Below are positions 1 to 46,446 of a stretch of 64,000 nt of DNA, piece after piece. The notes under the pieces were generated by a model, which made no database searches, was not told the DNA's origin, and saw only the letters and a list, made by a program, of their open reading frames with translations. This stretch comes from Bacteroidia bacterium (lineage in GTDB: Bacteria; Bacteroidota; Bacteroidia; AKYH767-A; OLB10). The position numbers and the translations under genes are program-made. Numbering within the stretch: position 1 is the first letter of the stretch; every line of letters starts with the position of its first letter. Location of the stretch: positions 1 through 64,000 of the forward strand of contig JAEUTH010000017.1 in the NCBI GenBank assembly GCA_016788165.1, written 5' to 3'.

Positions 1-3000
1 TGTTCCATTATTCCACAAATACGTGTAAGGTGTTTTGCCACCACTGCCTGTAGTAGTAATTGCACCATTATTACCCCCATTGCATGAAATGTTTTGATGT
101 AAGGTTGTGTTTAAACCCAAAGGTGCATATTCAACTACTACTGTGCTTCCTGTTATGGTACAACCATTGGCATCGGTAACTGTTACTGTATAGGTGCCTC
201 CGGGTATTAAATCATTTACCTTGGTAGTAGCGCCATTATTCCATAAATAACTATATGGTGTAGCACCATTTGATGCATTTGCAGTTGCTTTTCCGTTTGC
301 AAAGCCATTACAGGTAACATCATTGTTGGTAACATTTAAGCTCATGCCGGTACCGGGTTGTGTTATACTGTTACTTGTTGTAACTGTACAGCCATTAGCA
401 TCGGTAATGGTAACTGTGTAAGTACCCGCTGCTAAATTTATTGCATTTGCCGATGTAGTACCATTACTCCAACTATAGTTATACGGTGTAGTACCTCCGC
501 TAATTGTTGTAGAAATACTGCCTGTTGCTGCACCCAAACAATTTACATTTGTTTTTGCATTACTTGCTGTAAGTATAGCTGGCTGTGTTACAGTGTTTGT
601 TTGAGAAACTGAACAACCATTAGCATCGGTTACTGTAACAGTATAGCTGCCAAAACCTAAGTTTAAGTTGTTAGAACTTGTAACGCCATTGCTCCATATG
701 TATGTATATGGTGATACGCTACCGCTGGAAACAACATTTATTGAACCGTTACTTTGATCATAGCATATTACATTTGTTATAGTAGCATTAAGTTGCAATG
801 AGCTTGGCTGTGTAATAGAAACCGAAACAGATCCTGTGCAATTATTTTGATCTGTAACTGTTACAGTAAAGTTACCTGCGGCAATGTTTGATAGTGATGC
901 TGTTGAAGCACCATTATTCCATAAATAGGAGTAGGGTAGTTGTCCGCCACTTAAGTTTAAGGTGATAGTTCCATTATTTCCATTGTTACAGCTAACATCT
1001 GTCTTATTAGCCGTAACATTTAATGTGCATGCTTCCGTAATTATTATACAAGCACTATTGGTACATCCATTAATATCAGTAATTGTTACACAATAATTTC
1101 CGGGCGATAAGCCAGCAACAGAGTCGCTATAGTTTGGTGGTGTTGTGTTCCAACTGTATGTGTATGGTGCAGTTCCGCCCGAAACGGTTGCTTTGGCCGT
1201 ACCGTTATTTAAACCGGGAGCAGTTACATGTGTAGGGCTAATTGAAATGCTGATAGAATCGGGTTGACTTATATAATATGCTTGTGAATACGTGCAGCCT
1301 TTATTATCGGTTACTGTTAAAATATATGCACCTTCTGCAAACGCAGTGTACAATTTAGTTGTAACTCCGTTGCTCCACAAGTAGGTGTATGGACTTTTGC
1401 CGCCTAAAGCATTTGCCGAAATTAATCCATCACCACCACCATAACAGTTTACGTTTAGTAAGCCCAGTGTTTGAATTGTAAGTGGCGCATACTCGGTAAC
1501 TTCAATACTTGCTGTACCGGTACATCCGTTCGAGTCGGTTACAGTAACGGTGTAAACACCGCCACTTAAATTCGCGTTTACTTTATTCGTATTCCCATTA
1601 CTCCACAAATATGTATAAGGAGTTGAACCGCCTGATGGCTGTGCTGTGGCATTACCGTCAGCCAAACCGGCACAGGTTACATCATTGCTCGATAGCATCA
1701 AAGCCAGGGCAGCAGGATTAATTAATGTGCCCGAAATGGTTGAAGTACATCCATTGGCATCGGTTACAGTTACTATATAAGTTCCGGCTACGTCATTTAA
1801 ACTCGCTGTAGTTAATCCATTACTCCAAACAAACTGATAAGGTGGTGTACCTCCTTCAATTTGCGGTGTTATTGTACCTAAGCTACCCGAGCAAGGTGGA
1901 TGCTGTACATTATTTACAATACTTATTACAGCAGGGCTGTTAACTGCAGCGTTAGTTGATTGTGTACATCCGTTAGCATCTGTTATAGTAATTGTATAAC
2001 TTCCGGCAATAAGATTGTTTATCCCAGCAGTGGTTGCACCGGTATTCCACAAATAGCTGTAAGGATTTATACCACCACTTACATTAGCATTTAAGCTACC
2101 ATCAGATAAACCATTACACGATACATGAGTAGCGATTATGTTTAAATTTATTTGTGTAGGAGCTGTAAGGGTAATACTTGACGAGCCAATGCAATTATTA
2201 GCATCACTAACTGATACTGTAAAAGTACCGGATTGTAAATTTGTGATACTTGCATTTGTAATGCCATTACTCCATAAATAAGTATAAGGAGCAGTACCAT
2301 CATTAACGGTAGCATCAATCTGGCCATCGTTTCCATTAAAGCAGGTAATATTGGAGCCTGATAGTTGAACGTTAATAGCACAAGCTGATTGTATTTGAGC
2401 CGTTGCTGCAACCGTACATCCATTTACATCAGTAACGGTTACTGTATATGTTCCTGCACTTAAACCGGCAATGTTTGCAGTAGTTTGTGCCGGATTTGTA
2501 TTCCAATTATATAAATATGGAGGTGTTCCTCCGCTGGCTGTTACCGAAGCACTGCCATTGTTACCGGGTGGTGTAACATTTACCACCGTTGTATTTGCAG
2601 TTAATAATGACGGTGTGTTAATGGTGTAAGTTTGTTCTACTGTGCAACCCTTATTATCAGTTGCGGTTATAGTATAAGTACCGGCTGTAAATGATGTATA
2701 TGTTTTAGTGGTAACACCATTACTCCACAAGTATGTATAGGGATTTTTGCCACCGGTTGCAGTACAAACTACACCGCCATTGTTGCCACCAAAACACGTT
2801 ACATTTGTTACAGAGGTTGTCGAAATGGTTAAAGGCAAATATTCAGTAACCACAGTAGAGTCTGTAATGCTGCATCCATTTGCATCAGTTACAGTTACGG
2901 TATAAGTACCACCGGGTATTAACGCATTTATTTTGGTAGTACAACCATTGCTCCAAACATAACTATATGGTTGTACGCCATTAGCAGGTTGTGCTGTTGC

Positions 3001-6000
3001 TTCGCCATTCAATAATCCGGCACAGGTTACATCATTAGTAATAAAGCTCAACGTAAGTTGTAACGGTTGTGTTATTGTTGTTGAAATGGAATTGGTACAT
3101 CCCTTACCATCAGTAACTGTTACTGTATAGGTTCCGGCCAATAAATTGGTTTGACTGGCATTGGTGCTGCTGTTGCTCCAGAGATATGTGAACGAAGGCG
3201 TGCCACCAGTAACCAAACTGCTGATTGTACCTGTAGCCGAACCATAACAAACTGCATTTGTCTTGGTTGTACTTATTGTTAAAATTTCGGGTGATACAAT
3301 AGTTGTTGATATACTTTGTGTACAACCATTGGCATCAGTTACTGTACAGGTATAAGTGTTTGCGCTTAAATTCGATAATGATGCCGCTGTACTTCCGTTA
3401 CTCCATAAGTAGGTGTATGGCATTAAACCACCACTTGGATTCATTGTAATATTTCCATCGGTTTGGCCGGCACATGATATATTGTTTTTTATAAAGTTTG
3501 CAACCAACAATGGTGGGCTTGTAATAGTCTGACTTAATGTTACAGAACATGTATAGGCATCAGAAATTGTTACCGTATAGGTGCCGGCAATTAAATTGTT
3601 TAAATTCTGAGTTGTATTTCCATTGCTCCATGTAAAATTATATGGTGCAGTGCCCGAGGTTACATTTACATTGATACTTCCATTATTACCACCAAAGCAG
3701 GATACATTACTGCTACTAATACCAGCAGTTAAATTTGTAGGCGTAATTACGGTAGAAGAGGCAGTTTTGGTGCAACCATTCGCGTCTGTAACCGTTACAG
3801 TATATGTACCTGATGTTAAGTTGTTGATATGAGCCGTGGTTTGAATCGGGTTTGTATTCCATGAATAAGTATATGGCGACACGCCACCCGTAATGTTAGA
3901 AGTTATAGCGCCATTGTTATTTATGTAACAACCTGTTGGTGTGGCAGTTAATGTAATATTAATTACAGGTGCTGCACCAACAGTTAATACTGCGGTTTTT
4001 GTACAACCGGTTGCATCAGTAACTGTAACAGTAAAATTGTTGGCCGACAAATTAGTTCTGCTTGAATTGGTATTGCCTCCATTCCATAAAAATGTATATG
4101 GATAAACACCACCTGCTATACTCAAGCTTATACTACCATTGTTGGCACCCTGACAGGTTATATTAGTAATCGTAGGTGTAATTGTAATGGCTGTTGGTTG
4201 TGTTAGTATAATACTTTTTGATAAAGTACAGCCTTTATTGTCGGTAACTGTTACTGTATAGGTTCCGGCAGGACGACTATTTATTGAACTGGTGGTTGAG
4301 CCTGTATTCCAAATATATGAATAGGGTGTACTTCCGCCCGTTGCTGTAATAGCAGCTGAACCATTATTGCTGGCATTACAAGTTAAATTAACACCCGTAA
4401 TACTAGTGCTAAGTATTGTAGGTTGCGTAAGCGTTGTACTTGCAGTAACAGTACAACCATTTGCATCTGTAACTGTTACCTGATAAGTACCTATGGGTAA
4501 TCCTGTTGCACTTGATGTTGTGCGTACGGGTGTGGTATTCCAGCTATAACTATAAGGCGTTGTACCACCGGATGGATTGGCTGTAGCACTTCCACTGTTT
4601 GTACCAAAGCATACAACCTGAACCGGGTTTATAGTAGTTGTTAAAACATTGGGCTGGGTAATTACGGCCGTTGTAGAACTACTGCATCCTTTTGCATCAG
4701 TTACTGTTACTGTATAAGTACCAATAGATAAGTTAGCTGCATTTTGAGAAAGCATGCCATTGTTCCATTGGTATGTATAAGGTGTATTGCCTCCGCTGAT
4801 CGTATTCGAAACTGCCCCATCAGCACCACCATTACAGCTAACTGCTGTTATTGATTTTGAAATGCTTAGTACATTTGGCTGTGTAACAATTGATGAGGCT
4901 GTTAATGTACAGCCATTTGCATCTGTAACAGTTATCGTATAGGTACCTGCACTTCTGTTGTTTAGCAAACTGTTAGTGTTACCCGTATTCCACAAGTACG
5001 TATATGGCGATGTTCCATTGTATGCTGCAGCACTAACCGAACCATTACCACCTTCATTACAACTTACTGCGGTGTTCAATAAAGTAACAGTAATTGCATT
5101 TGGCGCCACCAATGTTTGAATTAAAACTCTGCTTGCACCTGCAGCATCTGTAACCGTTACTGTGTAAGTACCCGATGCAATATTATTTCTGTTAGCAGTT
5201 GTATGACCTGTACTCCATAGGTAACTGTATGGAGTTGTACCTCCGCTTACATTTGTAGATATACTGCCTGTATTGGTACCACCACAGGTAGGTTGAGTAA
5301 AGCTTAATGTTGCATTTAATTGGCCATTAGTTGTGATGATATAGCGGTTAGAAATCGTACAACCTTTACTATCAGTTGTGGTTACTGTATAAGTACCATT
5401 GTTTAATCCGGATCTGTTTTTAGAGGTTGTTCCGCCATTCCAAACATAGTTATATGCTGGATTCCCATTGGTAGTTGTAAGATTGATAGCACCATTGTTG
5501 CAACCGGTACAAGTTGTTTGTGTAACGGTAGCTGCATTATTTATCAGCGTTGGCGCTACCAATGTAATACTTGAAGTTGCCGTACATCCATTAGCATCGG
5601 TTGCTGTTACTGTATATATGCCAGCCGGCACATTTACCGGGTTTTTAACGGTTGCGCCATTGCTCCAGATATAAGTATATGGCGAAGTGCCGTTTGATGG
5701 ATTGGATGTAACTGTGCCATTACTGCCATTATAACAACTTACACTTGACGATGTGGTGCTATTGGTCAATAATGCGGGTTGCGTAATGTTATAACTTCTG
5801 GTGGTTGTACAACCTTTACTATCTGTTACGGTTACAGTATAGGTGTTAGGGTTCAGATTATTTCTGATAGCTAACGTGTTACCATTATTCCATTGATATG
5901 AATAGGGTTGTGTACCACCACTTGCAATACCACCGGCAATTCCATTTGCTGCACCATTACAAGTAACATTTTTAATATTTGTGTTTGCACTTAAAACGGC

Positions 6001-9000
6001 AGGCTGGCTTAGTATTATTGATTTACTTTTGGTGCATCCGTTGGCATCGGTAATCGTGCATGTATAAGTATTTGCACTTAAATTATTGCGCGTGGCATTG
6101 GTGTTGCCACCATTCCAGGCGTAAGTATAAGGTGTTACACCTCCGCTGGCATTAATTGAAATAGAACCGTTGCCACCGTTGCAATTTATTGGTGTTACAT
6201 TCTCATTGTGAACAATTAAATTTGGTGATGTAACCGTACTGTTGAGAGATATTGTACACCCTTTGTTATCTGTTACAATTACTGAATAGAATCCAATAGG
6301 AATTGTATTATTTACTTTGCTTGTAATGCCATTACTCCAAACATAGGAATATGGGCCTGTACCACCGGTTGGATTGGCTGTTACCGATCCATTACTTCCT
6401 CCATAACAAGCTACATTTACTGTAGTTATGTTTCCTGTTAGCTGTGATGGTTCCGTTATTGTAAAGGAACGGGTGATGGTGCAGTTATTTGCATCGGTTA
6501 CTGTTACAGTATAGGTGCCAGCTGTTAAATTTATAGCGTCACTATTGGTTTGTACCGGTGTCGAATTCCAATAATAAGTATAAGGCGTAATACCACCAAT
6601 AATTACCACAGTTGCTGTGCCATTGTTGCCACCATTGCAATTTACATTTGTACTGGTGTTACCTGTTCCATAATCGAGTTTTGCCGGATGCGTTAATACA
6701 ATCGAATTATTGTTGGTGCAACCATTTGCATCTGTAATAGTTACATTTTTAGTACCATCTTCTAATCCGGTTGCTATAGCAGTTGTTGCGCCACTATTCC
6801 ACAAATATGTATATGGTGTTGTACCTCCGGTAGCAACTACAGTGGCTGTACCATTACTGCCATTAAAGCAACTAATATTTGTACCGCTTATTGACGATGT
6901 AAGTACAGGTGGCTCAGTTATTATGTATGTATCCTGAGCAGTACAGCCAATATTATCTGTTACTGTAAATGTATATGTGCCTGATGCAAGATTGTTATTT
7001 GTTTTAGTTGTATTACCATTAGACCAGGCATAAGTTTGGCCTCCATTACCTCCGGTTATAGTTACAGTAATTTTTCCATTGGTTTCGGCAAAGCATTTTA
7101 CATGATTAAGTGTTGTGGCAGTAATTACCATCGCATCGGGTTGTGTTGCATTAACTGTTGTTGTAGTAGTACATCCATTTACATCGGTTACTGTAAAAAT
7201 GTTTGCTCCTGCTACAATGGTTTTACTGCCGGTTCCGCTATATGGAGGTGTTCCACCACTTGCAGTAATGTTGGCAATTCCTGTGCCCCCATTACAAAGA
7301 ATAGCAGTTGTAATTACACCATTGGCAGTAAGTAACGTAGGTTCAGTAACGGTAGTACTATTCGAAGCCGTACAACCCTTGCTATCTGTAACTGTATAAG
7401 TATATGTGCCCGCTGTAACACTAAACATCCCAACACCGGAGTAGGGTGGTGCGCCACCGGTAGCAACTACTGTAATTGTACTGGTGCCGTTTTTACATAA
7501 TATAGGTGTTTTTGAAAGAACCACTGCTAAGTGCTGAGGTGTAACAACAGTATATGAAGTATTTGCTGTACATCCGTTTGCATCGGTAATACTTGCTGTG
7601 TAAGTACCCGGTGTATGGTTTATCAAACCGGTTCCGGTGTATGGTGCTGTGCCTCCTGTTGCGCCAATGGTTACGTTCACATTGTTACCGTTGCAGGCAG
7701 CATTTACCTGATTTATAGTTATTGCTAACGTATTGGGTTCATTAACAGTGATGCTTGCCGAAGCAGTACATCCGCCATTATCTGTAAGAATGTATGTGTA
7801 AGTACCTGCTGTTACTACAAAATTTCCTACTCCGGTTACAGGAGGTACACCACCACTAGATGTTACGGATACAATTGCATTGCCTCCATTACATAAAATG
7901 TTAGTACTTGTTACTGAGGCTACGAATGTGCTTGGTTGCGTTAAAACATAAGTAGTACTTGCTGTACAACCGGTTGCGTCTGTTACGGTAAATGTGTAAG
8001 TACCCGCAGTTCGCAAATAAACACCCGTACCTGTGTAAGGCGCTGTACCTCCATTTGCTGTTACAAAAATATCTTCACTACCTCCAAAACAAACAATATT
8101 GTTTGAAGTAGCTGTAACAATAAGTTGCGTAGGTTGATTAATTGTTAAGGTAGCTGTATCTGCACAACCATTGGCATCTGTTACTACAAAATGATGGGTA
8201 CCTGCCTGAACTGAAAAATTACCTGTGCCGCTTAATGCTCCTGTTCCTCCCATAGCTGTAACAGTTACCGTACTATAGCCCCCATAACATGTTATCGAAG
8301 TATAAGATGCATTTGCCACTATAGCTGATGGCTGCGTAATATTAATTGTAACCGAATCCGAATTGCCGGCATCATCATTTACTATAATTGAATAAGTGCC
8401 TGCCGAATATGAAAATGTTCCTGTACCGGTGTAATTACCAGACCCGCCTGTTGCCGTAACGGTTACATTACTTAAACCTCCATTACAAAGTATCGGTTGC
8501 ACATTTGCCGAAACTACTAAGGTTGGATATGTGCTTATGATGGCTGTTGAAGTTTTGGTACATCCATTAGCATCTGTTACAGTTACAATATAGGTACCTG
8601 CTGATAAATTTGAAATTGAGGAACCGGTGTTGCCGTTATTCCATAAATATGTGTAAGGTGTTGTACCTCCATTTATTACTGCCGTAGCAGTACCGTTGTT
8701 CCCACCAATGGTTGTAACCGAAGTAGTAGTTAAATTCAGAATTAACGAATCAGGTTGTTGAAGTGTAAATACCTGAATACTTGCACAACCTGCCGCATCA
8801 GAAACAATACATTGATAACTACCGGCTGTTAATCCCGAAATGTTGTTGCTGTCAGCTTGTGTGGGTGTCCATGTAAATGAAAGCGGTGCAGTGCCACCTG
8901 TTACGGATGTTTGAATACTGCCATCATTATTACCATAGCAAGTTGGCATGCTTGCATTTGTCAAAGTTAACTGAGGCGCGTTTTGCGCACTAACTAATGT

Positions 9001-12000
9001 ATTAGCCGAAATACTGCATCCGTTTACATCGGTAACAGATACTGTATATAAACCGGTGCCTATTTGTGTTATGGGTGATACTGTTGCGCCATTTGACCAA
9101 ACATACGAATACGGAGTAGTGCCACCACTTACATTTGCTTGTGCTGTGCCGGTATTTTCTGTACACGAAGTGGTTGTACTACTTGCAGTTGCATTTAATA
9201 TAGCAGGTTGATTAATTATAAAAAGTTTGCTGTTTGTACATCCGTTATTATCTGTTACTGTTACTGTATAAGTATTGGGTGTAAGGTTCTGGATGATTTG
9301 ATTACTACTGCCATTGCTCCATAAATAGGTGTAAGGTGCTGTACCTCCATTGCCACTGGCTTGTATGCTGCCATTGCCAGCATTGTAACAAGTTACATTC
9401 GAAATTGTTTCGGTAATGGTTAAGGCAGTTGGTTGATTTAACACCAATGTAGCACTTGCAACACAACCAAACGAGCCTGTTACAGTTACTGTATATGTTG
9501 CAGATGGAATACCAGATAACTGGCTGTTTGTGGATCCGGTATTCCATAAATAACTATAGGGAGCCATGCCACCGGTAACGGATGCCGTAACACTACCATT
9601 GCTTTGTTCATTGCAGGAAGGCATTACCCCGCTTATTCCTGCTGTCATGCTGCTTGGTGTATTAACGGTTATACTACCCGAGCCTGTGCAACCGTCATTA
9701 TTAGTTACGGTAACTTCATAAGTACCAGGTGTACTTACTGTAATATTATCTAAAGTCTGACCATTAGACCATAAGTAACTGCTGAAACTTGTTGTAGATA
9801 GATTTGTTGATTGGCCCACACAAAAATTAACATTCCCGCTTATTACCGGTTGCGGTGTGTTGCTTATGGTTGTTGTAATTGAAGTTGACTTGGTGCAGCC
9901 GGTTGCATTACTTACCGTAACTGTATAAATATTTGCCTGTATAGCTGTTATCGACTGATTTGTACTTCCGGTACTCCATAAATAGCTTGCTAATCCTGCG
10001 GTTGCAGTTAATTGTGTTGAGCTGCTCTGACAAATCACCGTATTACCGCTGATATTTACAGTTGGTAAAGAATTAACGGTTGTTGTTACCGATGCCGTAC
10101 CCGTTGAGTTATTCAGATTTGTAACAGTTACCGTATATGTTGCAGCATTTTTAACATAAATGCCAGCCGTGGTTTTTCCATTCGACCATAAATAATTTAC
10201 ATAGCCGTTTGCTACATTTAAATAAATAGAATCGTTACTACAAAACGGAGTGTTGCCGTTAATAACCGGGCTGGGGTTAGGGCTCACAACCAAGCCTACA
10301 CTTGCAGTTTTACTGCATCCATAATAGTCTGTTACTGTAACGGTGTAAGTGGTTGATGTGGCAGGCGATGCTAATGGATTTACAATACTTGTACTGCTTA
10401 GTCCTGTAGCCGGTGTCCAGATAAATGTGTTTTGTGGTACCAATGAAAATCGCCATCCTTCCTGATTAGCACCCCAGGTACTGCTGCTATTACGACCAGA
10501 GATAGCTGTTGCATCTGTACCGGTACTGTTTTCGATACCTGCTGTGCGCAAACCTACATTTGGAGAAAGTGTTTGAAGATGCAGTTCAATTAAATTTTGG
10601 TTTTCGCAAAGCACCATTTGAAATGTTTCGGGCATGCCCCCACCAAAATTAGGCACATTTGTAAAAGTAACAGCACATTTTCTGTTTGGTGCGCTACCCG
10701 TTGTTGTATATTCGATGGTTCCACCGGTTGATGGATCTAAATCCGACCAGGCTGCAGCAATTAAATAATTGGGGTCATTAGTTGCCGGAATGCTTTGGCC
10801 AATACAGCAACCACTACCTGCGTTTGCATCAAATGTTATAAATCCATTACTCGAAATATAAAACTGACTATGCTGTACACCATAAAAATCAAAGTTAAAT
10901 CCAATTGGAATTGCCGTTGACAGTTCATCATCGCCTAATACTACTGATGTGCCTGCATTATTAATCATGCCAAACGGAATACTATTAACCAAGTATGCAG
11001 GTCCGTTTGCATTAAGTGGCGTTGCACCAAACTGCGAATTGTTACCGGTAAAAATACTGGCAGGTGTTGCAGTTGCTGCGGCATTTGGCAATGGCCTTTG
11101 TGTAATTGAAATTGTACCACTGCCTGTACAACCGGGTCCGGTGGTAACTGTTACTGTATAGGTGTTTTCAGTGTTAGTGGTAATTGATTGTGTTGTTGCA
11201 CCCGTATTCCAAAGATAACTGCTGTACGAACCTGCATTAAGTGTTACGTTTGTGCCTGTACAAAACGGATTCTGGCTGGCTGTAATAACAGGTGTTGGAT
11301 TATTAACAACGGTGATGTTTTTGTAAGCTACTGCTTTACAGCCTGTCGTAGCTGTAACAATTATTGAATAATTACCCGATTGTTCAACAGTAGCCTTATT
11401 TGCCGTTATTCCATTCGACCATAAATAATTACTAAAAGAGATGTTCGTTGTTAAATCTACACTTGCACCCTGGCAAATCGAAGAAGCAGGTGTTGCAACG
11501 ATACTTGGATTGGGAGCGGTAGTAGTTGGTTTATGCGTAATACTAATTGGTGACGATGAAGTTGTACAACCCGTACCATCAGTAACAGTTACTATATAGG
11601 TTACTGTGTTTGTGGATGCGCCACTGCAAGTGATTGTAATAGCGTTTGTTGTAGCGCCTGTTGACCATATATAACTACTTGCTGAGACTGGGGCAACTAA
11701 TGTAGCAGTTTGTAGTGAGCATAAAGTGTTGCCGTGCCATGTATTGGTAATTAGGGCAATATTTGTATTGGCTTTGGTTAATACAATGGAACCAAAAGAG
11801 TTGCCAACACCAACTGAGCCACGCAATTCAATCTTAGAATTACTATTTAAATATCCCGACCAAACATTGTTATGTGCTATGCCACTGCCTGTATGTACAA
11901 ATATCTGAACGCTATCAATTAAAAGCTCTATTACAGCGTCATGTTCAGGGATATCAATTTGATAATAACCACAAGCAAAACCTTGCCTTTTGGCACTCCA

Positions 12001-13770
12001 CGAGTGATTGTCGTTTGCAACAGTGCAACCCGTATAACCTGATGCACTACTTGGCGAAACGGTTGATGACCAGCGGCTTTGTGTACTAAATGATAAGGTG
12101 TTATCAGTATAATATCCGGCATAAGCCGTATTCCATAAATTGTTTTGATATTGATTACTTCCACTATTAAATGCATATACAATCCACTGATTTGAGCCAA
12201 AAACATTTGTATTACCAGCGGGCAAGTTTATTGCAAATGGTGCCGAAACAGCCGTGCATCCCAATGCATCAGAAATAGTAACTGTATAATTACCTGCTGC
12301 GTTTACCTGCGTTGAATTGGTGGTTGCACCATTACTCCATAAGTAACTATGTGCCACTGTACTGTTTAATGTAACAATTTCGCCTGGGCATATTGTGGTA
12401 TTGCCCGAAACCGATATGCTTGGATTGGTTAATGGTTGAACAGAAATACTTTGTGATACAGTTTGTGTACAGCCCGATGCATTTGTTACAGTTACTGTAT
12501 AGTTGCCAGTACTGTTCACATTAATACTTTGTAGTGTTGAGCCGTTGCTCCATAAGTAGTTTGTACCTGTTGAAACTGTTAGCAAAACAGTATTACCAGG
12601 GCAAATAGTGTTTGGGCCGTTTAATGAAATTGTTGGTGCTTGAAATTGGGATATTGCAACCGGTGCAGTAACCTGAACGCAGCCAGATGTTGTTAGCTGA
12701 ACCGTGTAATTACCAGCCGTTTTAGCAAAAATTGATTGGGTGGTCATGCCATTGCTCCACAAATAACTAATGCCTGTAGGGCAGGTAAGTTCTACTGAGT
12801 CGCCCAGACATAAAGTTGTATTACCATTTACAGTAATTGATGGTGCAGGTGTTACACTTACCACGGTATTGCAAGATGTGGTACGTCCGGTAGCATCTGT
12901 TACTGTTACCGTATAGGTGCCGGCAGCTCTGTTATTTATATTTGAGTTTGTATTGCCACTATTCCATAAATATGTAAAAGGTGTTGTGCCTCCGGTTAAT
13001 ACACTTACCGAAACACTTCCATTGTTATTGCCAATGCAGGAAGCGTTGGTACTGGTACATTGAACTATAAAAGGAGCATTGTTATTTAAATAGGCAAAAA
13101 TGTTTAATCGCAGATTGGTGGCATTGGGTTGTGGGCTATGAAACGAAGCTAAAGTCATGGTGCCAAATAGAACACGACCATATCCACTTATTTTTTCGGC
13201 TAATACGGTGCCTTTATTTCCTGTAATTAATGGTGTAGCTGCACCTCCGGTAATTGTAGCATGTGCAAAAGAAACGCCTGTCCAACTTGTGCCGCAAGCA
13301 TTAGGTCCCGTAAATATCTGATGCGTGTTTTGGCCACTGCTAATGCTGGCATTATTGCTAGCTTTATTATAATTGGTATTAAAGTTTAACATAACACCGC
13401 CAAAACCTAAACCAAAGTTACCACCCTGGTCAGGTGCTGCATTTATAAAAAGCATACCACCATTGCTCACCCAGTTTTCGATTACGGTACCGTTACTTAT
13501 AAGATAATTATTTAATGCAGTTGCTCCTAAGTTGCTGCCATCCATAAATACGAGTTTAGTTGTGTTATTGAAAACCGTTGCAGCAGCCGTGTTTTGAAAT
13601 GTACCTAAAATCCAACCTGAACTTCCAAAGGCTGTATTCATTAGGGTTACATTGTTATTATTAACCCATGGTTCGCCCGAAGATGAACGCATATAATAAA
13701 CGTTTAACGCCTTGCTTTGGGTTAAAATTAAAAGCAATAAAATTGAGAGAAGTAGAACTTTTTTCATCAT
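1..13770 (-). CDS. Giant secreted SprB-repeat adhesin, C-terminus beyond the window
   Basis: The frame is open for 4,590 codons from ATG at 13770 (a second ATG at 13767 gives MKK) to base 1, and its stop lies outside the window. Residues 1-20 are a signal peptide (MMKKVLLLSILLLL). Residues about 25-225 resemble a ThuA/glutamine-amidotransferase-like fold seen at the front of Bacteroidota surface proteins (GGMLFINAAPDQGG). Then come Ig/PKD-like units with the YLWSNG motif, a PA14-like region (about 513-673, with NDNHSW and CGYYQIDIPEHD), a nidogen-like region (about 890-1110, with GDDELSTAIPIGFNFDFYG), and from about residue 1370 some 44 SprB modules (Cys...GGTxPYxYLWxNG...GTYTVTVTDANGC). Proteins of this kind are exported by T9SS and act in surface adhesion or gliding. 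The sorting domain should be at the unseen C-terminus. No SprF partner lies at its 5' side. I found no in-frame stop while translating it. Function as an adhesin is inferred from the family. Confidence 0.92.
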   Translation of the reverse strand, partial: MMKKVLLLSILLLLILTQSKALNVYYMRSSSGEPWVNNNNVTLMNTAFGSSGWILGTFQNTAAATVFNNTTKLVFMDGSNLGATALNNYLISNGTVIENWVSNGGMLFINAAPDQGGNFGLGFGGVMLNFNTNYNKASNNASISSGQNTHQIFTGPNACGTSWTGVSFAHATITGGAATPLITGNKGTVLAEKISGYGRVLFGTMTLASFHSPQPNATNLRLNIFAYLNNNAPFIVQCTSTNASCIGNNNGSVSVSVLTGGTTPFTYLWNSGNTNSNINNRAAGTYTVTVTDATGRTTSCNTVVSVTPAPSITVNGNTTLCLGDSVELTCPTGISYLWSNGMTTQSIFAKTAGNYTVQLTTSGCVQVTAPVAISQFQAPTISLNGPNTICPGNTVLLTVSTGTNYLWSNGSTLQSINVNSTGNYTVTVTNASGCTQTVSQSISVQPLTNPSISVSGNTTICPGEIVTLNSTVAHSYLWSNGATTNSTQVNAAGNYTVTISDALGCTAVSAPFAINLPAGNTNVFGSNQWIVYAFNSGSNQYQNNLWNTAYAGYYTDNTLSFSTQSRWSSTVSPSSASGYTGCTVANDNHSWSAKRQGFACGYYQIDIPEHDAVIELLIDSVQIFVHTGSGIAHNNVWSGYLNSNSKIELRGSVGVGNSFGSIVLTKANTNIALITNTWHGNTLCSLQTATLVAPVSASSYIWSTGATTNAITITCSGASTNTVTYIVTVTDGTGCTTSSSPISITHKPTTTAPNPSIVATPASSICQGASVDLTTNISFSNYLWSNGITANKATVEQSGNYSIIVTATTGCKAVAYKNITVVNNPTPVITASQNPFCTGTNVTLNAGSYSSYLWNTGATTQSITTNTENTYTVTVTTGPGCTGSGTISITQRPLPNAAATATPASIFTGNNSQFGATPLNANGPAYLVNSIPFGMINNAGTSVVLGDDELSTAIPIGFNFDFYGVQHSQFYISSNGFITFDANAGSGCCIGQSIPATNDPNYLIAAAWSDLDPSTGGTIEYTTTGSAPNRKCAVTFTNVPNFGGGMPETFQMVLCENQNLIELHLQTLSPNVGLRTAGIENSTGTDATAISGRNSSSTWGANQEGWRFSLVPQNTFIWTPATGLSSTSIVNPLASPATSTTYTVTVTDYYGCSKTASVGLVVSPNPSPVINGNTPFCSNDSIYLNVANGYVNYLWSNGKTTAGIYVKNAATYTVTVTNLNNSTGTASVTTTVNSLPTVNISGNTVICQSSSTQLTATAGLASYLWSTGSTNQSITAIQANIYTVTVSNATGCTKSTSITTTISNTPQPVISGNVNFCVGQSTNLSTTSFSSYLWSNGQTLDNITVSTPGTYEVTVTNNDGCTGSGSITVNTPSSMTAGISGVMPSCNEQSNGSVTASVTGGMAPYSYLWNTGSTNSQLSGIPSATYTVTVTGSFGCVASATLVLNQPTALTITETISNVTCYNAGNGSIQASGNGGTAPYTYLWSNGSSNQIIQNLTPNTYTVTVTDNNGCTNSKLFIINQPAILNATASSTTTSCTENTGTAQANVSGGTTPYSYVWSNGATVSPITQIGTGLYTVSVTDVNGCSISANTLVSAQNAPQLTLTNASMPTCYGNNDGSIQTSVTGGTAPLSFTWTPTQADSNNISGLTAGSYQCIVSDAAGCASIQVFTLQQPDSLILNLTTTSVTTIGGNNGTATAVINGGTTPYTYLWNNGNTGSSISNLSAGTYIVTVTDANGCTKTSTAIISTYPTLVVSANVQPILCNGGLSNVTVTATGGSGNYTGTGTFSYSAGTYSIIVNDDAGNSDSVTINITQPSAIVANASYTSITCYGGYSTVTVTAMGGTGALSGTGNFSVQAGTHHFVVTDANGCADTATLTINQPTQLIVTATSNNIVCFGGSEDIFVTANGGTAPYTGTGVYLRTAGTYTFTVTDATGCTASTTYVLTQPSTFVASVTSTNILCNGGNAIVSVTSSGGVPPVTGVGNFVVTAGTYTYILTDNGGCTASASITVNEPNTLAITINQVNAACNGNNVNVTIGATGGTAPYTGTGLINHTPGTYTASITDANGCTANTSYTVVTPQHLAVVLSKTPILCKNGTSTITVVATGGAPPYSGVGMFSVTAGTYTYTVTDSKGCTASNSTTVTEPTLLTANGVITTAILCNGGTGIANITASGGTPPYSGTGSKTIVAGANIFTVTDVNGCTTTTTVNATQPDAMVITATTLNHVKCFAETNGKITVTITGGNGGQTYAWSNGNTTKTNNNLASGTYTFTVTDNIGCTAQDTYIITEPPVLTSSISGTNISCFNGSNGTATVVATGGTTPYTYLWNSGATTAIATGLEDGTKNVTITDANGCTNNNSIVLTHPAKLDYGTGNTSTNVNCNGGNNGTATVVIIGGITPYTYYWNSTPVQTNSDAINLTAGTYTVTVTDANNCTITRSFTITEPSQLTGNITTVNVACYGGSNGSVTANPTGGTGPYSYVWSNGITSKVNNTIPIGFYSVIVTDNKGCTISLNSTVTSPNLIVHNENVTPINCNGGNGSISINASGGVTPYTYAWNGGNTNATRNNLSANTYTCTITDANGCTKSKSIILSQPAVLSANTNIKNVTCNGAANGIAGGIASGGTQPYSYQWNNGNTLAIRNNLNPNTYTVTVTDSKGCTTTRSYNITQPALLTNSTTSSSVSCYNGSNGTVTSNPSNGTSPYTYIWSNGATVKNPVNVPAGIYTVTATDANGCTATSSITLVAPTLINNAATVTQTTCTGCNNGAINLTTTNGNPAYNYVWNGGTTSKNRSGLNNGTYTVTTTDSKGCTISNRYIITTNGQLNATLSFTQPTCGGTNTGSISTNVSGGTTPYSYLWSTGHTTANRNNIASGTYTVTVTDAAGASRVLIQTLVAPNAITVTLLNTAVSCNEGGNGSVSAAAYNGTSPYTYLWNTGNTNSLLNNRSAGTYTITVTDANGCTLTASSIVTQPNVLSISKSITAVSCNGGADGAVSNTISGGNTPYTYQWNNGMLSQNAANLSIGTYTVTVTDAKGCSSSTTAVITQPNVLTTTINPVQVVCFGTNSGSATANPSGGTTPYSYSWNTTPVRTTSSATGLPIGTYQVTVTDANGCTVTASTTLTQPTILSTSITGVNLTCNASNNGSAAITATGGSTPYSYIWNTGSTTSSINSRPAGTYTVTVTDNKGCTLSKSIILTQPTAITITPTITNITCQGANNGSISLSIAGGVYPYTFLWNGGNTNSSRTNLSANNFTVTVTDATGCTKTAVLTVGAAPVINITLTATPTGCYINNNGAITSNITGGVSPYTYSWNTNPIQTTAHINNLTSGTYTVTVTDANGCTKTASSTVITPTNLTAGISSSNVSCFGGNNGSINVNVTSGTAPYNFTWSNGNTTQNLNNLIAGTYTVTISDAYTCSVTLSQTITSPPLLVANFIKNNISCAGQTDGNITMNPSGGLMPYTYLWSNGSTAASLSNLSANTYTCTVTDANGCTQSISTTIVSPEILTISTTKTNAVCYGSATGTISSLVTGGTPSFTYLWSNSSTNASQTNLLAGTYTVTVTDGKGCTNSISTTITQPLQLTLSFITNDVTCAGLLNGEATAQPANGVQPYSYVWSNGCTTKINALIPGGTYTVTVTDANGCSITDSTVVTEYLPLTISTTSVTNVTCFGGNNGGVVCTATGGKNPYTYLWSNGVTTKTYTSFTAGTYTITATDNKGCTVEQTYTINTPSLLTANTTVVNVTPPGNNGSASVTASGGTPPYLYNWNTNPAQTTANIAGLSAGTYTVTVTDVNGCTVAATAQIQSACAINVQLSGSNITCFNGNDGQIDATVNDGTAPYTYLWSNGITNASITNLQSGTFTVSVSDANNCIGSSSITLTAPTQINLNIIATHVSCNGLSDGSLNANVSGGINPYSYLWNTGATTAGINNLIAGSYTITITDANGCTQSTNAAVNSPAVISIVNNVQHPPCSGSLGTITPQIEGGTPPYQFVWSNGLTTASLNDVAGTYIVTVTDANGCTSTISGTLINPAALALMLSSNDVTCAGLADGNATAQPSGGSTPYTYLWSNGNTNKVNANLSGGVYTVTVTDSNGCTGTASIEVTEYAPLTIQTLGLLNVNCYGGGDGLISANALGGKSPYTYLWSNGVTTKLYTAFAEGAYILTVTDNKGCTYSQAYYISQPDSISISISPTHVTAPGLNNGTAKATVSGGTAPYTYSWNTTPPNYSDSVAGLSPGNYCVTITDINGCTNSACIIITEACTLNVTANKTDVSCNNGNNGTITLNLSGGQLPYSYLWNNGASTASLSNIAAGNFTVTVTDQNNCTGSVSVSITQPSSLQLNATITNVICYDQSNGSINVVSSGSVSPYTYIWSNGVTSSNNLNLGFGSYTVTVTDANGCSVSQTNTVTQPAILTASNAKTNVNCLGAATGSISTTISGGTTPYNYSWSNGTTSANAINLAAGTYTVTITDANGCTVTTSNSITQPGTGMSLNVTNNDVTCNGFANGKATANASNGATPYSYLWNNGATTKVNDLIPGGTYTVTVTDANGCTITGSTVVVEYAPLGLNTTLHQNISCNGGNNGAITTTGSGGKTPYTYLWNNGT
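119..1480 (-). repeat. Six-module superunit B of the adhesin (about 1362 bp)
   Basis: This is the second full copy of the superunit, with the same order of module types as superunit A. A third copy starts at about 118 and runs off the edge (its first module again has GGKTPYTYLWNNG). Stretches are also similar at DNA level, for example the run giving TYTVTVTDANGC followed by shared bases around the end of module 6. Confidence 0.8.
1481..2830 (-). repeat. Six-module superunit A of the adhesin (about 1350 bp)
   Basis: A higher-order repeat begins at each VTEY(A/L)PL or VVEYAPL junction. These junctions lie at about 2831-2862, 1481-1510 and 119-150. Superunit A has six modules with recognisable position-specific identities: module 1 has GGKxPYTYLWSNG and TDNKGCT, module 2 has a Cys-less APGLNNG or PPGNNG start, module 3 follows an (S/E)AC linker, and module 6 starts with NDVTC and ends at the next EYAPL. 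Confidence 0.8.
7130..8520 (-). repeat. Block of seven short SprB-like modules, 200-bp period
   Basis: Seven consecutive modules are about 66 residues long (about 200 bp) instead of about 76. The central YLWxNGxTT strand is replaced by a short Gly-x-Gly turn (for example GGSGNYTGTGTF, GGVPPVTGVGNF, GGTPPYSGTGSK). The turn motifs sit near 8429, 8233, 8028, 7829, 7630, 7433 and 7228, spacing 195-205 bp. Long modules flank the block on both sides. Confidence 0.85.
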
Positions 13771-41117: not shown

Positions 41118-44100
41118 TTATCGTAAAAGCATTACGGTTCCGGTATTTCTTAATTTTCCTTTTTCGCTCATGTCAATAAGTTTGCTTCCGTTTTCAAACG
41201 TACCCGAAACTTTCCATACATAAGCACCTTGCGGTAATCCCTTGCCATTCATATCAGTTCCTTGCCATTTGCATTTTGATATGCCGTTTTCAAAAGTGGT
41301 TTCTTCACAAAACCAAACTAACTCGCCAAATGGCGAAAATATTTCTAACTTATAATTTTGTATCGAAGTTCCTTTCGCAAAAAAGCTACGTTCTTCGTCA
41401 TTGCCGTTATCAGGCGATACACTGTTGGGCAAGTATAAAGTGCCTGGCAAGTCAACTAAAAAACATGTTACTGCGGTATCGCTACATTCATTATTATTTC
41501 TGGCAATAAGCATAACGCATCTTTCGCCACTGCTATAATATAAATGCAATGGGTTATGAAATATACTGTTGGTGCCATCATCAAAATCCCAAAAAACGGT
41601 ATTTGCATTAATGCTTAAGTCTTTAAACTGATAATAACCGCTTGGCGAAAACATAATCTGATTAACAACTGTATCAACACTTAGATATGAAAATTGTGCC
41701 TGTGGTTTAGCTTGCACGTTAATATAATGCAATCGGTATAAAGTGTCGAAACAAATACCATTGTTGCCGGCAATAAGCCACACACTATATATGCCACTGT
41801 TGTTATATTGTTGTGGTGGTGGCGCTGCTAGGGTAGATGTTGTTCCATTACCAAAATTCCAATAAAATGTATTTGCATTGCTGCTGCTGTTTTGTGTAAA
41901 AGTAACTACATCGCCAGGGCATATTACCGTATCGCTAGCGCTAAAATTTGTAACTGGTGCAGCATATACATTAATCAACGTATCGCTGCTGCTTTTACAT
42001 CCATATAAATTATTTGCAATTAGCGTAGTTGTAAATGATGTATCGTTATTATAAGTACGTACCGGATTGGTTTGTTGTGAGCTATCTGTAACTCCAAAAT
42101 ACCATTGGTAACTACCGGCTGATACACTTTGGTTTATAAAATTAATTTGTGCAGGCATGGCACACAAGGGTACTTGTGTAAACGTAAAATCAGCAATGGC
42201 AATGGGGCGTATAAACACACTGTTAAAGGTTGTATCGAAACTACAATTATTACCATCGGTAACGGTAAGGGTTACAGCATACATACCTGTATCGCTATAA
42301 ACATAATTTACAGGCGGGTTGTTATTTATGGTTACACCATCGCCCATATTAAAACTGTAAAACACATTGTTGCCAGAGGTTGCCGTTACCGTTATGGGCA
42401 AGCCTAAACATACTTGATTTATAGGTACTGATAAGTTTGCTGTTGGCGTAGGCACAATGGTAACGTTGGTAGTAAACGTATCGCGGCAGCCGTTTAAACT
42501 ATTAGCCACAAGACTAATCTGAAAAATACCGGTTGACGTAAAAACATGTTGTGCGTTAACCGTTGAATCGGGTAGTGAGCCATCGCCAAAGTTCCAGCTA
42601 TAACCGGCACCATTGCCTAGGTTATTAAACTGAACCACACCGTTTACACAATTTACAGGTGCTACCGTAAAAGTATCAACAGGTGGTGGCAAAACTGTTA
42701 TTGTTTTCGAAATCGAATCAATGCCACATTGGTAAGCGTGCATCCAAACGGTATATGTACCGGGCTGTTGGTATGTGTGTGTAACTGTATCGTTACTGGC
42801 AAAATTACCATCACCATAATTCCAGCTAATAGCAGCACCAGGTACCAATAAGCTGGTTACACTTACAAAATTTACCGGTGTGCCCAGGCAAACCGTTTCA
42901 TCTGAAGCATTAAACAAAGCCTTAATAGTACCGGGATGTATGGTATCGGTTACAATCATGGTGTCGCTACCACATTCGTTGTTGGCAATAAGCATAAACG
43001 TATAAACACTATCGGCACTATCGGTGGTTAGTATGTAGTATGGTGCTATGTTGATAGGTATGCCATTCAGATAAAGAGCAAAATTATCAGGTATGCCAGC
43101 CGAGTAATCGTAAAAGTAAACCGTATCAGGTGAACACCCGGTAGTATTTATCAAAGCAAAACCTGCATCGGGGCTGGGGCTTATAACCACACTATCCATA
43201 TAGGTTACTGTACCGCAACAGCTATTTATGGTAGCTTGTATGTAATAGGTTTTAATCAGTGTATCGGTAGCGTATTGATGCGCTGCCGGTGCATAGCTGC
43301 TGTCAATGGTTCCATCTCCAAAATTCCATATATAACTAAAGTTGGTATCTGCAGGTGTTGAAAAACTTACTGAAATGGGCAATGCACTGCAAGCGGTATC
43401 TTTGCTAACTGAAAAATTGGGTATGGCTGAATTAACTACATAAACATTTTGTGTAATGGTATCGAGACAAAAAGGCGATTGTGTATTTTGGAGAATAAGC
43501 GTAATAATATAATTGCCGGTAATTGTATAAGTATGTGTGGTATTGTTTGAAGTAACGGGTGGGGTTAAGTCGCCAAAATCCCAGGTGGCAATGGTGTTTG
43601 CTATGGTATCTTCGAACAAGACAGGTGTATTTACGCAAATGCATGTGGGTATATTAAACGCTGCGGCAGGTGGACTGCTAAGTGTTATCAGCAATGTATC
43701 AATAATGGTACAGCCGCCTGTATTTATAGTATATGTTACAATTGCAGGATTAGCTGTGGCCGAATCGGGATTAAATATTCCCGTATTACTAACAATACCA
43801 TTGCCTTGCCAAAAACCCGTTGCCGGTAATGCGCCACCACTTATGTTTACAGTATCACTATTACTGCATAAATCAATATCGTTACCGGCTGTAATGCCTA
43901 AACCAACAACGTTTACAATAATGGTATCAGATACATCACAACCTGTTGGCCCTGTTGTGAAAATTAAATTATTGGTTGCTGTTTGAGTTGAACCCGGGTT
44001 GAACAAAGCCGGTTGCAAAATGTTTCCATTCCAAGTCCATGTGCCATTTAAGTTGTTCGAAATAATATTTAAATCAATAGGCAAGGCATTTATACAAACC

Positions 44101-45398
44101 GTGCTATCTGTTTTAATATTTGGATTGGGTGGTGGTGTGCTTACAACAAAATTATAGGCATACATTAATGTATCGCATGTGTTTGAAACCTGAATATTAA
44201 ACTGATAATGACCCGTATCGGTAATTTGTGCTATGCCAGCACTATTAATAAGCACAGGCATTCCATTTACCAATAAACTCCAACTGCTATCTAAATTAAA
44301 TGGGCTAAAAGTTACATGGTTGCTTAGGTTTAATGCGTAGTTAACCGGCCATGCCACACAAGTATCGGCAATGGGTGTGTACAAGGCACTTGAGCCTTGT
44401 AAAAAGGTTATGCTATCATTCCATAAACACCAACTACCCGAAAAAAACGGGCTGCAGCAAATCATATCGCCTACCTGCACCTGAAAGCCATACGTATTGG
44501 TGTTAAGTGCAATAAATTGAGGCTGGCTGTCGTTGGGGTTGGATATGCTTACACCTGCCGGATTAACTTGCCAAAGCCATGCATAACCAGCGGTGTTCTG
44601 ACTGTTTACTATTACGCCCATTGTATCAGGTGTGCAACCATTATAATTGGTAAATACCGGATTTAAAACGGGTTTTGCTTTTATATGCATGGTTTGCGAT
44701 GTGCTGGTGGTACCGCATGAATTGCTTTGTGTTAATGTTACTGTATAGGTACCCGGTATCAGATATTGATAGGCTGGCGCTGGTACCGTTACGTTACTGT
44801 TGGTACTATACAAATTAAATACAGTACCATCGCCCATATCCCACGTAATAAAAGTGGTATCAAGCATATCGGCATTAGCGCACCCCAATATTGTAATGGG
44901 CAAGGGCGCATCCTGGCAAATGGTATCCGGTATTTGAAAGCGGCTGTTAGGCAAAAATTTAACCTTAGGATATGTATTAAAAGTATTAGAGCTATAGCCC
45001 AATGCACAGTGCTTAATATAAAAAATGGTTACGGTAGGATTTAAAAAGTTACTGCCATTACTTAAACATGTGTCGGCTTTGAAGTTGTATTTATGATACA
45101 AACAATTGGAAATGTTACCTACTACGGTATCGGTTAAGCCATCTCCCCAACAAACAAAAACCGAGTCGAAAGGTAAGGCTGATGTGGTTGTAATACCAAT
45201 CGAATCGCTAACACAAAAAGCAATACTGCCGCATGAAACCGTAACCCCGGGCAATATTTGTCCACAGGTTGAATCGGAGAGTGAAAATGATGAACCGGGT
45301 GGACAGTTTTGAGCCTTCAGGCCACAGGTTATTATCAACCCAATAAACAAGCAATAAAGTTGCTTGTAACTGATGGTATTAAAAATGTTTGTATGCAA
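41118..45398 (-). CDS. PKD-repeat secreted protein with T9SS type B sorting domain
   Basis: 1426 residues. Signal peptide ending near residue 29 (ITCGLKAQ). About nine PKD or PKD-like domains marked by WxFGDGT variants (ITWDMGDGT near 200, YIWNFGDGT, ISWNYGDGN, YSWNFGDGS, FYWNFGNGT, VFWDFDDGT near 1285). The last about 90 residues are the gliding-motility C-terminal (CHU_C) sorting domain: LYLPNSVSPDNG, YKLEIFSPFGELV, and LPQGAYVWKV. It is expected to be exported by the type IX system and held at the surface. It overlaps the upstream SprF-like gene by 20 bp, so the two are made as a pair. The ligand or role (adhesion, polymer binding) is not visible. Confidence 0.93.
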   Translation of the reverse strand: MHTNIFNTISYKQLYCLFIGLIITCGLKAQNCPPGSSFSLSDSTCGQILPGVTVSCGSIAFCVSDSIGITTTSALPFDSVFVCWGDGLTDTVVGNISNCLYHKYNFKADTCLSNGSNFLNPTVTIFYIKHCALGYSSNTFNTYPKVKFLPNSRFQIPDTICQDAPLPITILGCANADMLDTTFITWDMGDGTVFNLYSTNSNVTVPAPAYQYLIPGTYTVTLTQSNSCGTTSTSQTMHIKAKPVLNPVFTNYNGCTPDTMGVIVNSQNTAGYAWLWQVNPAGVSISNPNDSQPQFIALNTNTYGFQVQVGDMICCSPFFSGSWCLWNDSITFLQGSSALYTPIADTCVAWPVNYALNLSNHVTFSPFNLDSSWSLLVNGMPVLINSAGIAQITDTGHYQFNIQVSNTCDTLMYAYNFVVSTPPPNPNIKTDSTVCINALPIDLNIISNNLNGTWTWNGNILQPALFNPGSTQTATNNLIFTTGPTGCDVSDTIIVNVVGLGITAGNDIDLCSNSDTVNISGGALPATGFWQGNGIVSNTGIFNPDSATANPAIVTYTINTGGCTIIDTLLITLSSPPAAAFNIPTCICVNTPVLFEDTIANTIATWDFGDLTPPVTSNNTTHTYTITGNYIITLILQNTQSPFCLDTITQNVYVVNSAIPNFSVSKDTACSALPISVSFSTPADTNFSYIWNFGDGTIDSSYAPAAHQYATDTLIKTYYIQATINSCCGTVTYMDSVVISPSPDAGFALINTTGCSPDTVYFYDYSAGIPDNFALYLNGIPINIAPYYILTTDSADSVYTFMLIANNECGSDTMIVTDTIHPGTIKALFNASDETVCLGTPVNFVSVTSLLVPGAAISWNYGDGNFASNDTVTHTYQQPGTYTVWMHAYQCGIDSISKTITVLPPPVDTFTVAPVNCVNGVVQFNNLGNGAGYSWNFGDGSLPDSTVNAQHVFTSTGIFQISLVANSLNGCRDTFTTNVTIVPTPTANLSVPINQVCLGLPITVTATSGNNVFYSFNMGDGVTINNNPPVNYVYSDTGMYAVTLTVTDGNNCSFDTTFNSVFIRPIAIADFTFTQVPLCAMPAQINFINQSVSAGSYQWYFGVTDSSQQTNPVRTYNNDTSFTTTLIANNLYGCKSSSDTLINVYAAPVTNFSASDTVICPGDVVTFTQNSSSNANTFYWNFGNGTTSTLAAPPPQQYNNSGIYSVWLIAGNNGICFDTLYRLHYINVQAKPQAQFSYLSVDTVVNQIMFSPSGYYQFKDLSINANTVFWDFDDGTNSIFHNPLHLYYSSGERCVMLIARNNNECSDTAVTCFLVDLPGTLYLPNSVSPDNGNDEERSFFAKGTSIQNYKLEIFSPFGELVWFCEETTFENGISKCKWQGTDMNGKGLPQGAYVWKVSGTFENGSKLIDMSEKGKLRNTGTVMLLR

Positions 45399-46446
45399 AG
45401 CAGTTTACAATCGTTTTAAAAAGTTTTTTAGCGGTAATGTTTAATGTTACTTCAACAATACCTCCGCTTTGTGCACTTAAGCCGCGGTTGTTATAATCGT
45501 AAGATAAGCAAATGTTATAGCGGTCGGTACTGCCAATTTCTGTTCCAATTAAAAATACGTATCCATCGGTGTTTTGAGTTACAGCGTTTGCAAAATAACT
45601 ATTTACATAGTAAGCCCCAATGTAAACGTTGCAAGGTGCATCTTCGCCAGCAAAATTAAGTGCGGCACCGGCTGTAAATTTTTCGATGGTACTTTGTTTG
45701 TCATACTGAAATAATAAATGGCGCAGGTGTATGCCATCAGGGCTTAAAGCAGTTAGCGATGTGGTTGCAGTGGCTATTAAACGCACGGGTAAACGTGTGT
45801 TTATGCCTAACAACGATTCGGTTGGGCGGCTTATGTGATGTGCTGTAAATGAAAACGAAAAAGGTACTCGGTAATTTTTAACCATATCGTTATTTAGTAT
45901 GCGGCTTAAATCTAAATTGGCATTTGTCCAGGTAAAACCGGCACTTAAATCTAAAAACTGTGTAGCATCAATATTCATATTTAATGCTGCCGGGTTTACA
46001 CCAAAAACCGGGTTTAAGTCATTTGCAAATATTAACTCAGGCTTGCCTAAGTTTTTACGTATAAATGCTACATCAATGGCTGCAACCAATTGATGCTTGC
46101 TTTTAGCCTGGCGGTGTATCAGGTTATATCGGGTAGTTAATTTTGCTTGTTGTGTTTTTAAGTTACCTACGCCTTCAACATCTTGCATCAGCGATAAACC
46201 AACACCTAAGCCTGATGATGGAAATGGCATGTGAATGCCGGCAAATAGTGTATTAAAATCATCATTGCCTAAACCCATCCATTGCTTATGATATGCGGTT
46301 TGTATTTGAACCACCCTTTTATTCATAATTACATTAGAAGGCTGTGTGAACTGAAACGTGTTACTTACCTGCGAAAAGGCTGCATCTTGTGCAAAAGCAC
46401 CGATACTTACAAAAAACAATATTATAAGTAAGTAATATTTACGCAT
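45379..46446 (-). CDS. PorP/SprF family type IX secretion outer-membrane protein
   Basis: 355 residues. Signal peptide (MRKYYLLIILFFVSIGAFAQ), then the PorP/SprF beta-barrel profile: QDAAFSQ at the mature start, QWMGLGNDDF, LGVGLSLMQDVEG, and a closing barrel strand region. SprF-like proteins help a specific type IX cargo reach or stay at the cell surface; here the cargo is almost surely the PKD/type B protein encoded immediately downstream. The promoter at 46495-46522 precedes it. It is not next to the giant SprB-repeat adhesin. Confidence 0.93.
   Translation of the reverse strand: MRKYYLLIILFFVSIGAFAQDAAFSQVSNTFQFTQPSNVIMNKRVVQIQTAYHKQWMGLGNDDFNTLFAGIHMPFPSSGLGVGLSLMQDVEGVGNLKTQQAKLTTRYNLIHRQAKSKHQLVAAIDVAFIRKNLGKPELIFANDLNPVFGVNPAALNMNIDATQFLDLSAGFTWTNANLDLSRILNNDMVKNYRVPFSFSFTAHHISRPTESLLGINTRLPVRLIATATTSLTALSPDGIHLRHLLFQYDKQSTIEKFTAGAALNFAGEDAPCNVYIGAYYVNSYFANAVTQNTDGYVFLIGTEIGSTDRYNICLSYDYNNRGLSAQSGGIVEVTLNITAKKLFKTIVNCFAYKHF

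Follow-up and report, generated by a model that had tools for sequence, protein, structure and literature searches.

A giant gene at the edge of a contig

Do whole blocks of modules, and not single modules, make up the array at the C-terminal end of the giant surface protein encoded here, and how did such blocks arise? The window, i.e., the whole stretch of DNA analysed, covers the initial 64 kb of contig C46 in a 3.34-Mb genome of 46 contigs. A gene for a giant SprB-repeat surface protein occupies positions 1 to 13770 on the minus strand. Because the window starts where the contig starts, the assembly truncates the reading frame: only the N-terminal 4590 of at least 4791 residues lie on this contig. 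The last 124 bases of the frame on C46 are exactly the first 124 bases of contig C23, and an assembly search detected no second full-length copy of this 124-bp junction sequence. Joining the two contigs extends the frame by 201 codons to a stop at residue 4791 (continuation L012:125-730). The C23 part supplies the remainder of module 1 of the third block (block C below), one module 2, and then a C-terminal sorting domain. The number of blocks given here is a minimum; the assembly break could conceal more identical copies, none of which is visible.

Other SprB genes of the assembly likewise lie at contig ends. The ends of C38 and C45 share an exact overlap of 136 bp, as the starts of C46 and C23 share 124 bp, and these contigs were left unjoined. 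The overlapping contigs end within repeat-rich genes, and the unequal overlap lengths indicate that the overlaps do not reflect one fixed k-mer.

The Pfam SprB family (PF13573) matches the protein in tandem (1008.7 bits, 37 stretches, plus 2 in the C23 part), and the whole protein contains about 55 modules. Its N-terminal MMKKVLLLSILLLLILTQSKALN resembles a signal peptide as judged by eye. For the N-terminal domain of 213 residues, the class sample yielded distant relatives in 7 other genomes; 23 further members of the family gave no match, and the domain has no Pfam assignment. A nidogen-like stretch (PF06119; E=5e-5) scores 23.8 bits, just under the Pfam cut-off of 25. Because the N-terminal domain has no Pfam match and the nidogen-like stretch stays below the cut-off, an adhesive role of the protein, as read from its sequence, is at most plausible. 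In the middle of the protein (7060-8700), shorter SprB-like modules lacking Trp are spaced about 66 residues apart.

The C-terminal sorting domain (L012:2-730) is matched by PF18962 (E=5.9e-15) and by TIGR04183, the type A model of the type IX secretion system (T9SS; E=8.5e-12). No type B domain was found in this part: TIGR04131 was not among the listed matches, and CHU_C matched only below its cut-off. The genome encodes a T9SS translocon (SprA_N, E=5.7e-156). The gene next downstream of the SprB-repeat gene encodes an MgsA/RarA-type ATPase; no SprF/PorP-family carrier gene is adjacent, and the five PorP-family genes of the genome lie elsewhere. The gene would thus encode a surface stalk of at least 4791 residues, built of tandem Ig-like SprB modules and exported through the T9SS by way of a type A sorting domain. 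Such a stalk would have its anchor at the C-terminus, and the phased blocks described below would be the part closest to it.

In being a giant T9SS-exported surface filament with SprB-type repeats (PF13573), the protein resembles the gliding adhesin SprB of Flavobacterium johnsoniae. SprB, however, is a type B substrate with SprF as its carrier (PMC12635249), whereas the protein studied here has a type A sorting domain and no SprF neighbour. It is not SprB itself, because it has a type A tail and is followed by an MgsA/RarA-type gene, not by SprF. Elsewhere in the window, a PKD-domain protein (41118-46446) with a weak CHU_C (type B) tail adjoins a PorP/SprF-family gene; judged by sequence, this is likely a type B substrate with its carrier.

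A six-module period next to the sorting domain

A preliminary description of the window had proposed a six-module higher-order repeat delimited by a recurring linker. The regular part of the joined protein was split at the conserved Trp, yielding 33 modules (m00 to m32), which were aligned by HMM; a MAFFT alignment of all modules was too gappy for lag tests. Tandem Repeats Finder detected no repeat, as expected for units so diverged. In the last 15 modules (m18-m32), mean pairwise identity is 41.7% and rises to 52.0% at lag 6 and 59.1% at lag 12 (each p=0.0002, module order shuffled 5000 times). Every other lag lies between 38.8 and 43.1%, and lag 1 is not elevated. The 18 regular modules upstream (m00-m17, minus strand, 3094-7164, the upper bound being approximate) show no lag-6 excess. 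The proposed period is thus borne out at lags 6 and 12, with positions 4 and 5 of the block only weakly in phase or not at all (see below).

Numbered from the linker, the first module in phase is a position-6 module, m18 (2866-3093, minus strand), which precedes block A and is 58% identical to m24 and 64% identical to m30. Block A comprises positions 1 to 6 (m19-m24, 1516-2865, minus strand, coordinates taken from the Trp anchors), and block B follows with m25-m30 (154-1515, minus strand). Both are supported by the lag-6 test. Block C starts with its position-1 module m31 (1-153, minus strand) and continues on C23 with m32 (position 2) and the sorting domain. Hence, no more than two blocks are complete, and the third ends with its modules 1 and 2, ahead of the type A T9SS sorting domain.

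The linker V(T/V)EY(L/A)PL is present, as described, on the minus strand at each junction of positions 6 and 1: VTEYLPL at 2830-2850, VTEYAPL at 1480-1500 and VVEYAPL at 118-138. Its starts are 450 and 454 residues apart, exactly six modules in both cases; the description had the module count right, and its distances of 451-453 residues were slightly off. The motif was absent elsewhere in the fetched SprB loci of this genome and in 34 public-genome loci.

We asked which positions carry the phase. Modules at positions 6, 1 and 3 have their nearest partners at a distance of 6 or 12 modules, and this largely holds for position 2 as well. In a maximum-likelihood (ML) tree of the 33 modules (IQ-TREE), equal positions form the groups m18/24/30 (support 100/98), m19/25/31 (98/89) and, among the labelled rows, m20/26/32 (91/79); positions 3, 4 and 5 form no single groups. 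The position labels require 7 changes on this tree, as compared to 10.3 when shuffled (as low in 0 of 200). The tree is thus not one in which neighbouring modules group together, although equal positions do so at only three of the six. Per-position tests, run with row and column means removed, gave p<=0.006 in every comparison for positions 6 and 1, 0.008-0.083 for position 2, p=0.006 for position 3, a marginal p=0.031 for position 4 and p=0.20 for position 5. When positions 3 to 5 were pooled, in-phase likeness still exceeded that of random pairs (p=0.0009; positions 4 and 5 alone, p=0.039). According to these p values, in-phase similarity declines away from the VTEYAPL junction.

Possible traces of phase extend farther upstream. 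Six modules contain the two-residue insert type WNTxPxxTT; five of these share one phase, two of the five lying upstream (p=5e-4), and a comparison of m12-m17 with m18-m23 gave p=0.045. An older, nearly erased phase upstream of m18 is possible but not established. The earlier statement that no phase exists upstream of about position 3050 was therefore nearly right: m18 (3093-2866) is itself in phase, and the insert type recurs beyond it.

We propose, at a probability of roughly 0.7, that the gene encodes a stalk protein in whose anchor-proximal part a six-module run was long ago duplicated in tandem at least twice, and whose modules are probably tied together by disulfide bonds. Duplication of a multi-module block, as first suggested, is supported for at least the four contiguous positions 6-1-2-3 and not for position 5. 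Since positions 3 to 5 remain ungrouped in the tree and position 5 lacks in-phase similarity, the step from these positions to all six modules is partly an extrapolation. The same data could reflect a shorter cassette, three or four modules long (6-1-2, perhaps 3), of which three copies came to lie among unrelated modules; the equal six-module spacing would then be a coincidence or a later adjustment. The restriction of the ML groups to positions 6, 1 and 2, the absent in-phase similarity at position 5 and the marginal result for position 4 would fit such a cassette. Against it, both intervals are exactly six modules, the pooled likeness of positions 3 to 5 (and of 4 and 5 alone) is above chance, and full blocks duplicate as a unit in other arrays (see below). 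We consider the cassette unlikely.

The probable block duplication is ancient

At in-phase sites encoding the same residue, the codon is identical in 40.9% of cases (0.409), as compared to 43.6% (0.436) expected from codon usage. Synonymous codon agreement is at chance level; therefore, synonymous sites are saturated. DNA identity between in-phase modules amounts to 51-66%, with exact runs of at most 20 bases in common. The longest exact repeat in the gene (26 bp) is out of phase, and the top blastn self-alignment of the gene shows 66.7% identity over 520 aligned positions. The block duplication is thus ancient.

These values bear on the earlier suggestion that the repeat is a substrate for recombination altering adhesin length. 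In a periscope-type system, blocks would be live substrates of homologous recombination and adhesin length would vary between strains. The contig break inside the third block, the position of the other SprB genes at contig ends and the recent block duplications in other species (see below) are what such a system might produce. However, length variation in periscope proteins accompanies high DNA identity between repeats (PMC8201768), and in this gene neither the best self-match nor any exact run approaches such identity; moreover, no further full-length copy of the 124-bp junction was found in the assembly. A recombination-substrate role is not supported, since synonymous sites are at chance and no more than 20 exact bases are shared in phase. 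The block repeat is very unlikely to be an active length-changing switch, and of all the explanations considered, live recombination is the one to which we give the least credence.

According to our preferred reading, synonymous sites have been randomised since the tandem duplication, so that shared origin is still clear only at positions 6, 1, 2 and 3. The residual likeness is strongest around the VTEYAPL 6/1 junction and was most likely kept by selection, on an inter-module joint or a repeated surface, and not by ongoing recombination. Selection could also be invoked without any block duplication, if a regularly spaced feature had been favoured and every sixth module had converged. Synonymous sites indeed bear no trace of common descent, and similarity centred on one junction is what functional convergence would give. 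On the other hand, four consecutive positions share differing idiosyncratic features in the same order, and multi-module duplication is demonstrably frequent in SprB arrays. Convergence is, in our view, very improbable.

Module blocks duplicate as units in other SprB arrays

For comparison, we used other SprB genes of this genome, 34 public-genome loci and a further 40 loci of relatives belonging to the class. Since many high lag-2 scores only mirror similarity between neighbours, a strict contrast was applied to arrays of at least 12 modules: one lag had to exceed both neighbouring lags (p<=0.01) and also lag 1. Of the 65 SprB arrays, 13 showed such periodicity. The best lag was 4 in five arrays, 7 in three Maribacter species, 6 in two arrays, and 2, 5 and 10 in one each. 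The window gene as a whole reached p=0.039, because its phase spans only the last 15 of 55 modules.

A fresh case was found in Poritiphilus flavus (L066, NZ_WXYO01000001.1), where one SprB-type gene contains two separate pairs of six-module copies; one pair is 98.2% identical in DNA along 1731 bp, the other 97.9% along 1651 bp. Nearly all synonymous codons are identical in most of the copied modules, and these copies are a recent block duplication. In another array (L054), a duplication with a four-module period shows 93% identity. These fresh cases show that module blocks duplicate as units, of which the window gene is an old case. Since related arrays hold fresh four- and six-module duplications, block duplication is also plausible here. 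It is the usual mode in proteins generally, where repeats expand by duplication of several domains at once (PMC1553488). The three Maribacter arrays (L061, L063 and L064) have a seven-module phase at identical module numbers, with saturated synonymous sites.

An array at the other end of C46 (L015, G000:C46:205000-214960) had a best lag of 10. Its even lags are raised while the odd ones are lowered, which points to a basic period of two modules. The same even/odd pattern, with two alternating module types, was seen in L011 (G000:C6:1-12000), a likely continuation of L015; the two are probably contig-end fragments of one SprB-repeat gene. This gene ends with a type B sorting domain, and a PorP/SprF-family gene (C6:5051-5926) lies directly downstream.

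A proposed relocated cysteine at position 2

All modules of the block region carry a Cys near W-23 (C1) and another near W+27 to W+29 (C2), with position 2 as the exception. In all three blocks, the position-2 module lacks C1 and retains C2; contrary to the earlier description, it is not Cys-less. In block A this module is m20 (2413-2643, minus strand), with the two-residue insert in WNTNPAQTT, and in block B it is m26 (1060-1290, minus strand). In both blocks, a Cys stands at W+41 in the linker that follows: in SAC after m20 (2380-2382, minus strand), proposed as a stand-in for the lost C1, and in EAC after m26 (1027-1029, minus strand). In block C, only the sorting domain follows. What had been taken for an extra linker before the third module adds no residues and is this Cys-bearing linker after position 2. 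The supposed Cys-less module and extra linker are thus one coupled feature, a first Cys relocated into the next linker.

The coupling recurs in other proteins. A giant protein of 68 modules (L022, G000:C11:60000-77083) has about 40 consecutive modules without C1, with a Cys in the next linker. In the other proteins, with this C11 gene left aside, a following-linker Cys accompanied 6/10 modules without C1 as compared to 36/394 with it. In an independent set the counts were 5/7 and 8/650, all five cases coming from the L092 protein.

We then examined where in arrays each Cys is missing. C1 is absent from 10/50 last modules as compared to 7/851 interior ones (p=1.6e-9), with no surplus of C2 loss. 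Conversely, C2 is absent from 9/39 first modules as compared to 6/851 interior ones (p=9.5e-10), with no surplus of C1 loss. With similar rows collapsed, the excess loss of C1 from last modules held in the first set (p=2e-4) and, separately, in the independent set (p=0.0024), as did that of C2 from first modules (p=0.0015 and 8e-7, respectively). A table of the presence of C1 in a module against C2 in the next was significant in the first set; this covariation was not replicated in the independent set, where almost no C2 losses occur inside arrays. The last module of the window protein lacks C1, as the array-end pattern predicts.

In an AlphaFold model of positions 1-2-3 (mean pLDDT 96.1, 85 sequences), every module consists of six strands. 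C1 (residue 19) follows the first strand at the pole toward the next module, and C2 (residue 69) precedes the last strand at the pole toward the previous one. From this predicted strand order, C1 of one module and C2 of the next would meet at one interface. With such pairing, C1 would be dispensable in the last module and C2 in the first. The array-end statistics imply, at the level of sequence, that SprB modules may be joined by disulfides from C1 of module i to C2 of module i+1.

Pairing of C1 with C2 inside one module was considered first, because the linker Cys tracks loss of C1 in the same module. It was rejected: C1 and C2 of the same module show no significant covariation (OR 0.4-3), they lie at opposite poles according to strand order, and the C2 of the last module would be left unpaired. 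Intra-module pairing predicts none of the array-end losses, and the array-end test points to pairing between modules.

Hence, given the array-end result, position 2 would hold a relocated inter-module link. In our preferred model, a C1-C2 disulfide probably joins each module to its successor. Where position 2 lacks C1, the Cys of the following linker would substitute in blocks A and B; the last block would need no substitute because no module follows. Additional cysteines were seen in the window protein. Two are in neighbouring modules, at residue 3610 (m18) and residue 3669 (m19), and two within m26, at residues 4227 and 4241; they come in twos, as extra disulfides would require.

We lean, by a little over even odds, toward the general view that SprB-type stalks are covalent chains linked from C1 to the C2 of the next module, in which blocks carry position-specific variants of the link. 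If so, the bond donor of blocks A and B has moved from module 2 to the linker that precedes module 3, and this relocated link could set a bending point of the stalk or its resistance to force. The relocated link also fills about 40 consecutive modules of the C11 giant protein.

Super-repeats and stalk cohesion in giant T9SS proteins

The higher-order block repeat resembles the super-repeats of titin, an already known kind; the proposed disulfide chain is more novel. In the titin A-band and in nebulin, as here, block duplication would explain why equal block positions are more similar than neighbours. Titin shows this strongly in certain blocks and at certain positions only (PMC10665226), and the expansion of nebulin proceeds by seven domains at once (PMC1553488). 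Titin and nebulin work in animal muscle, have many blocks and are known to act like rulers, whereas the window protein belongs to a bacterial surface, has two full blocks and a partial third, and has no known partner lattice. Unlike in an ideal super-repeat, its phase is not kept at all positions (absent at 5, marginal at 4).

With the periscope proteins (SasG, Rib and Sgo_0707), the protein shares a long stalk of tandem folded domains. Their repeats are nearly identical in DNA and variable in number (PMC8201768), in contrast to the diverged in-phase modules and random synonymous sites found here. A direct sequence search matched no solved structure to the block region. By sequence profile and fold, the best solved-structure matches were fragments of the Aureispira grappling hook protein GhpA (about 20% identity), which is likewise giant, T9SS-secreted and made of Ig-like modules; no end-to-end sequence similarity between the two proteins was found.

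Animal muscle proteins are the best-known carriers of super-repeats. The arrays compared here show that such repeats, with periods of two or more modules, recur in bacteria, in a common class of giant surface proteins. They reveal how SprB arrays grow, in cases ranging from 98% identical to nearly erased. Our literature search returned no description of a disulfide chain from module to module, which does not prove that none exists. Such a chain, if it holds, is a testable statement on the cohesion of T9SS-exported filaments.
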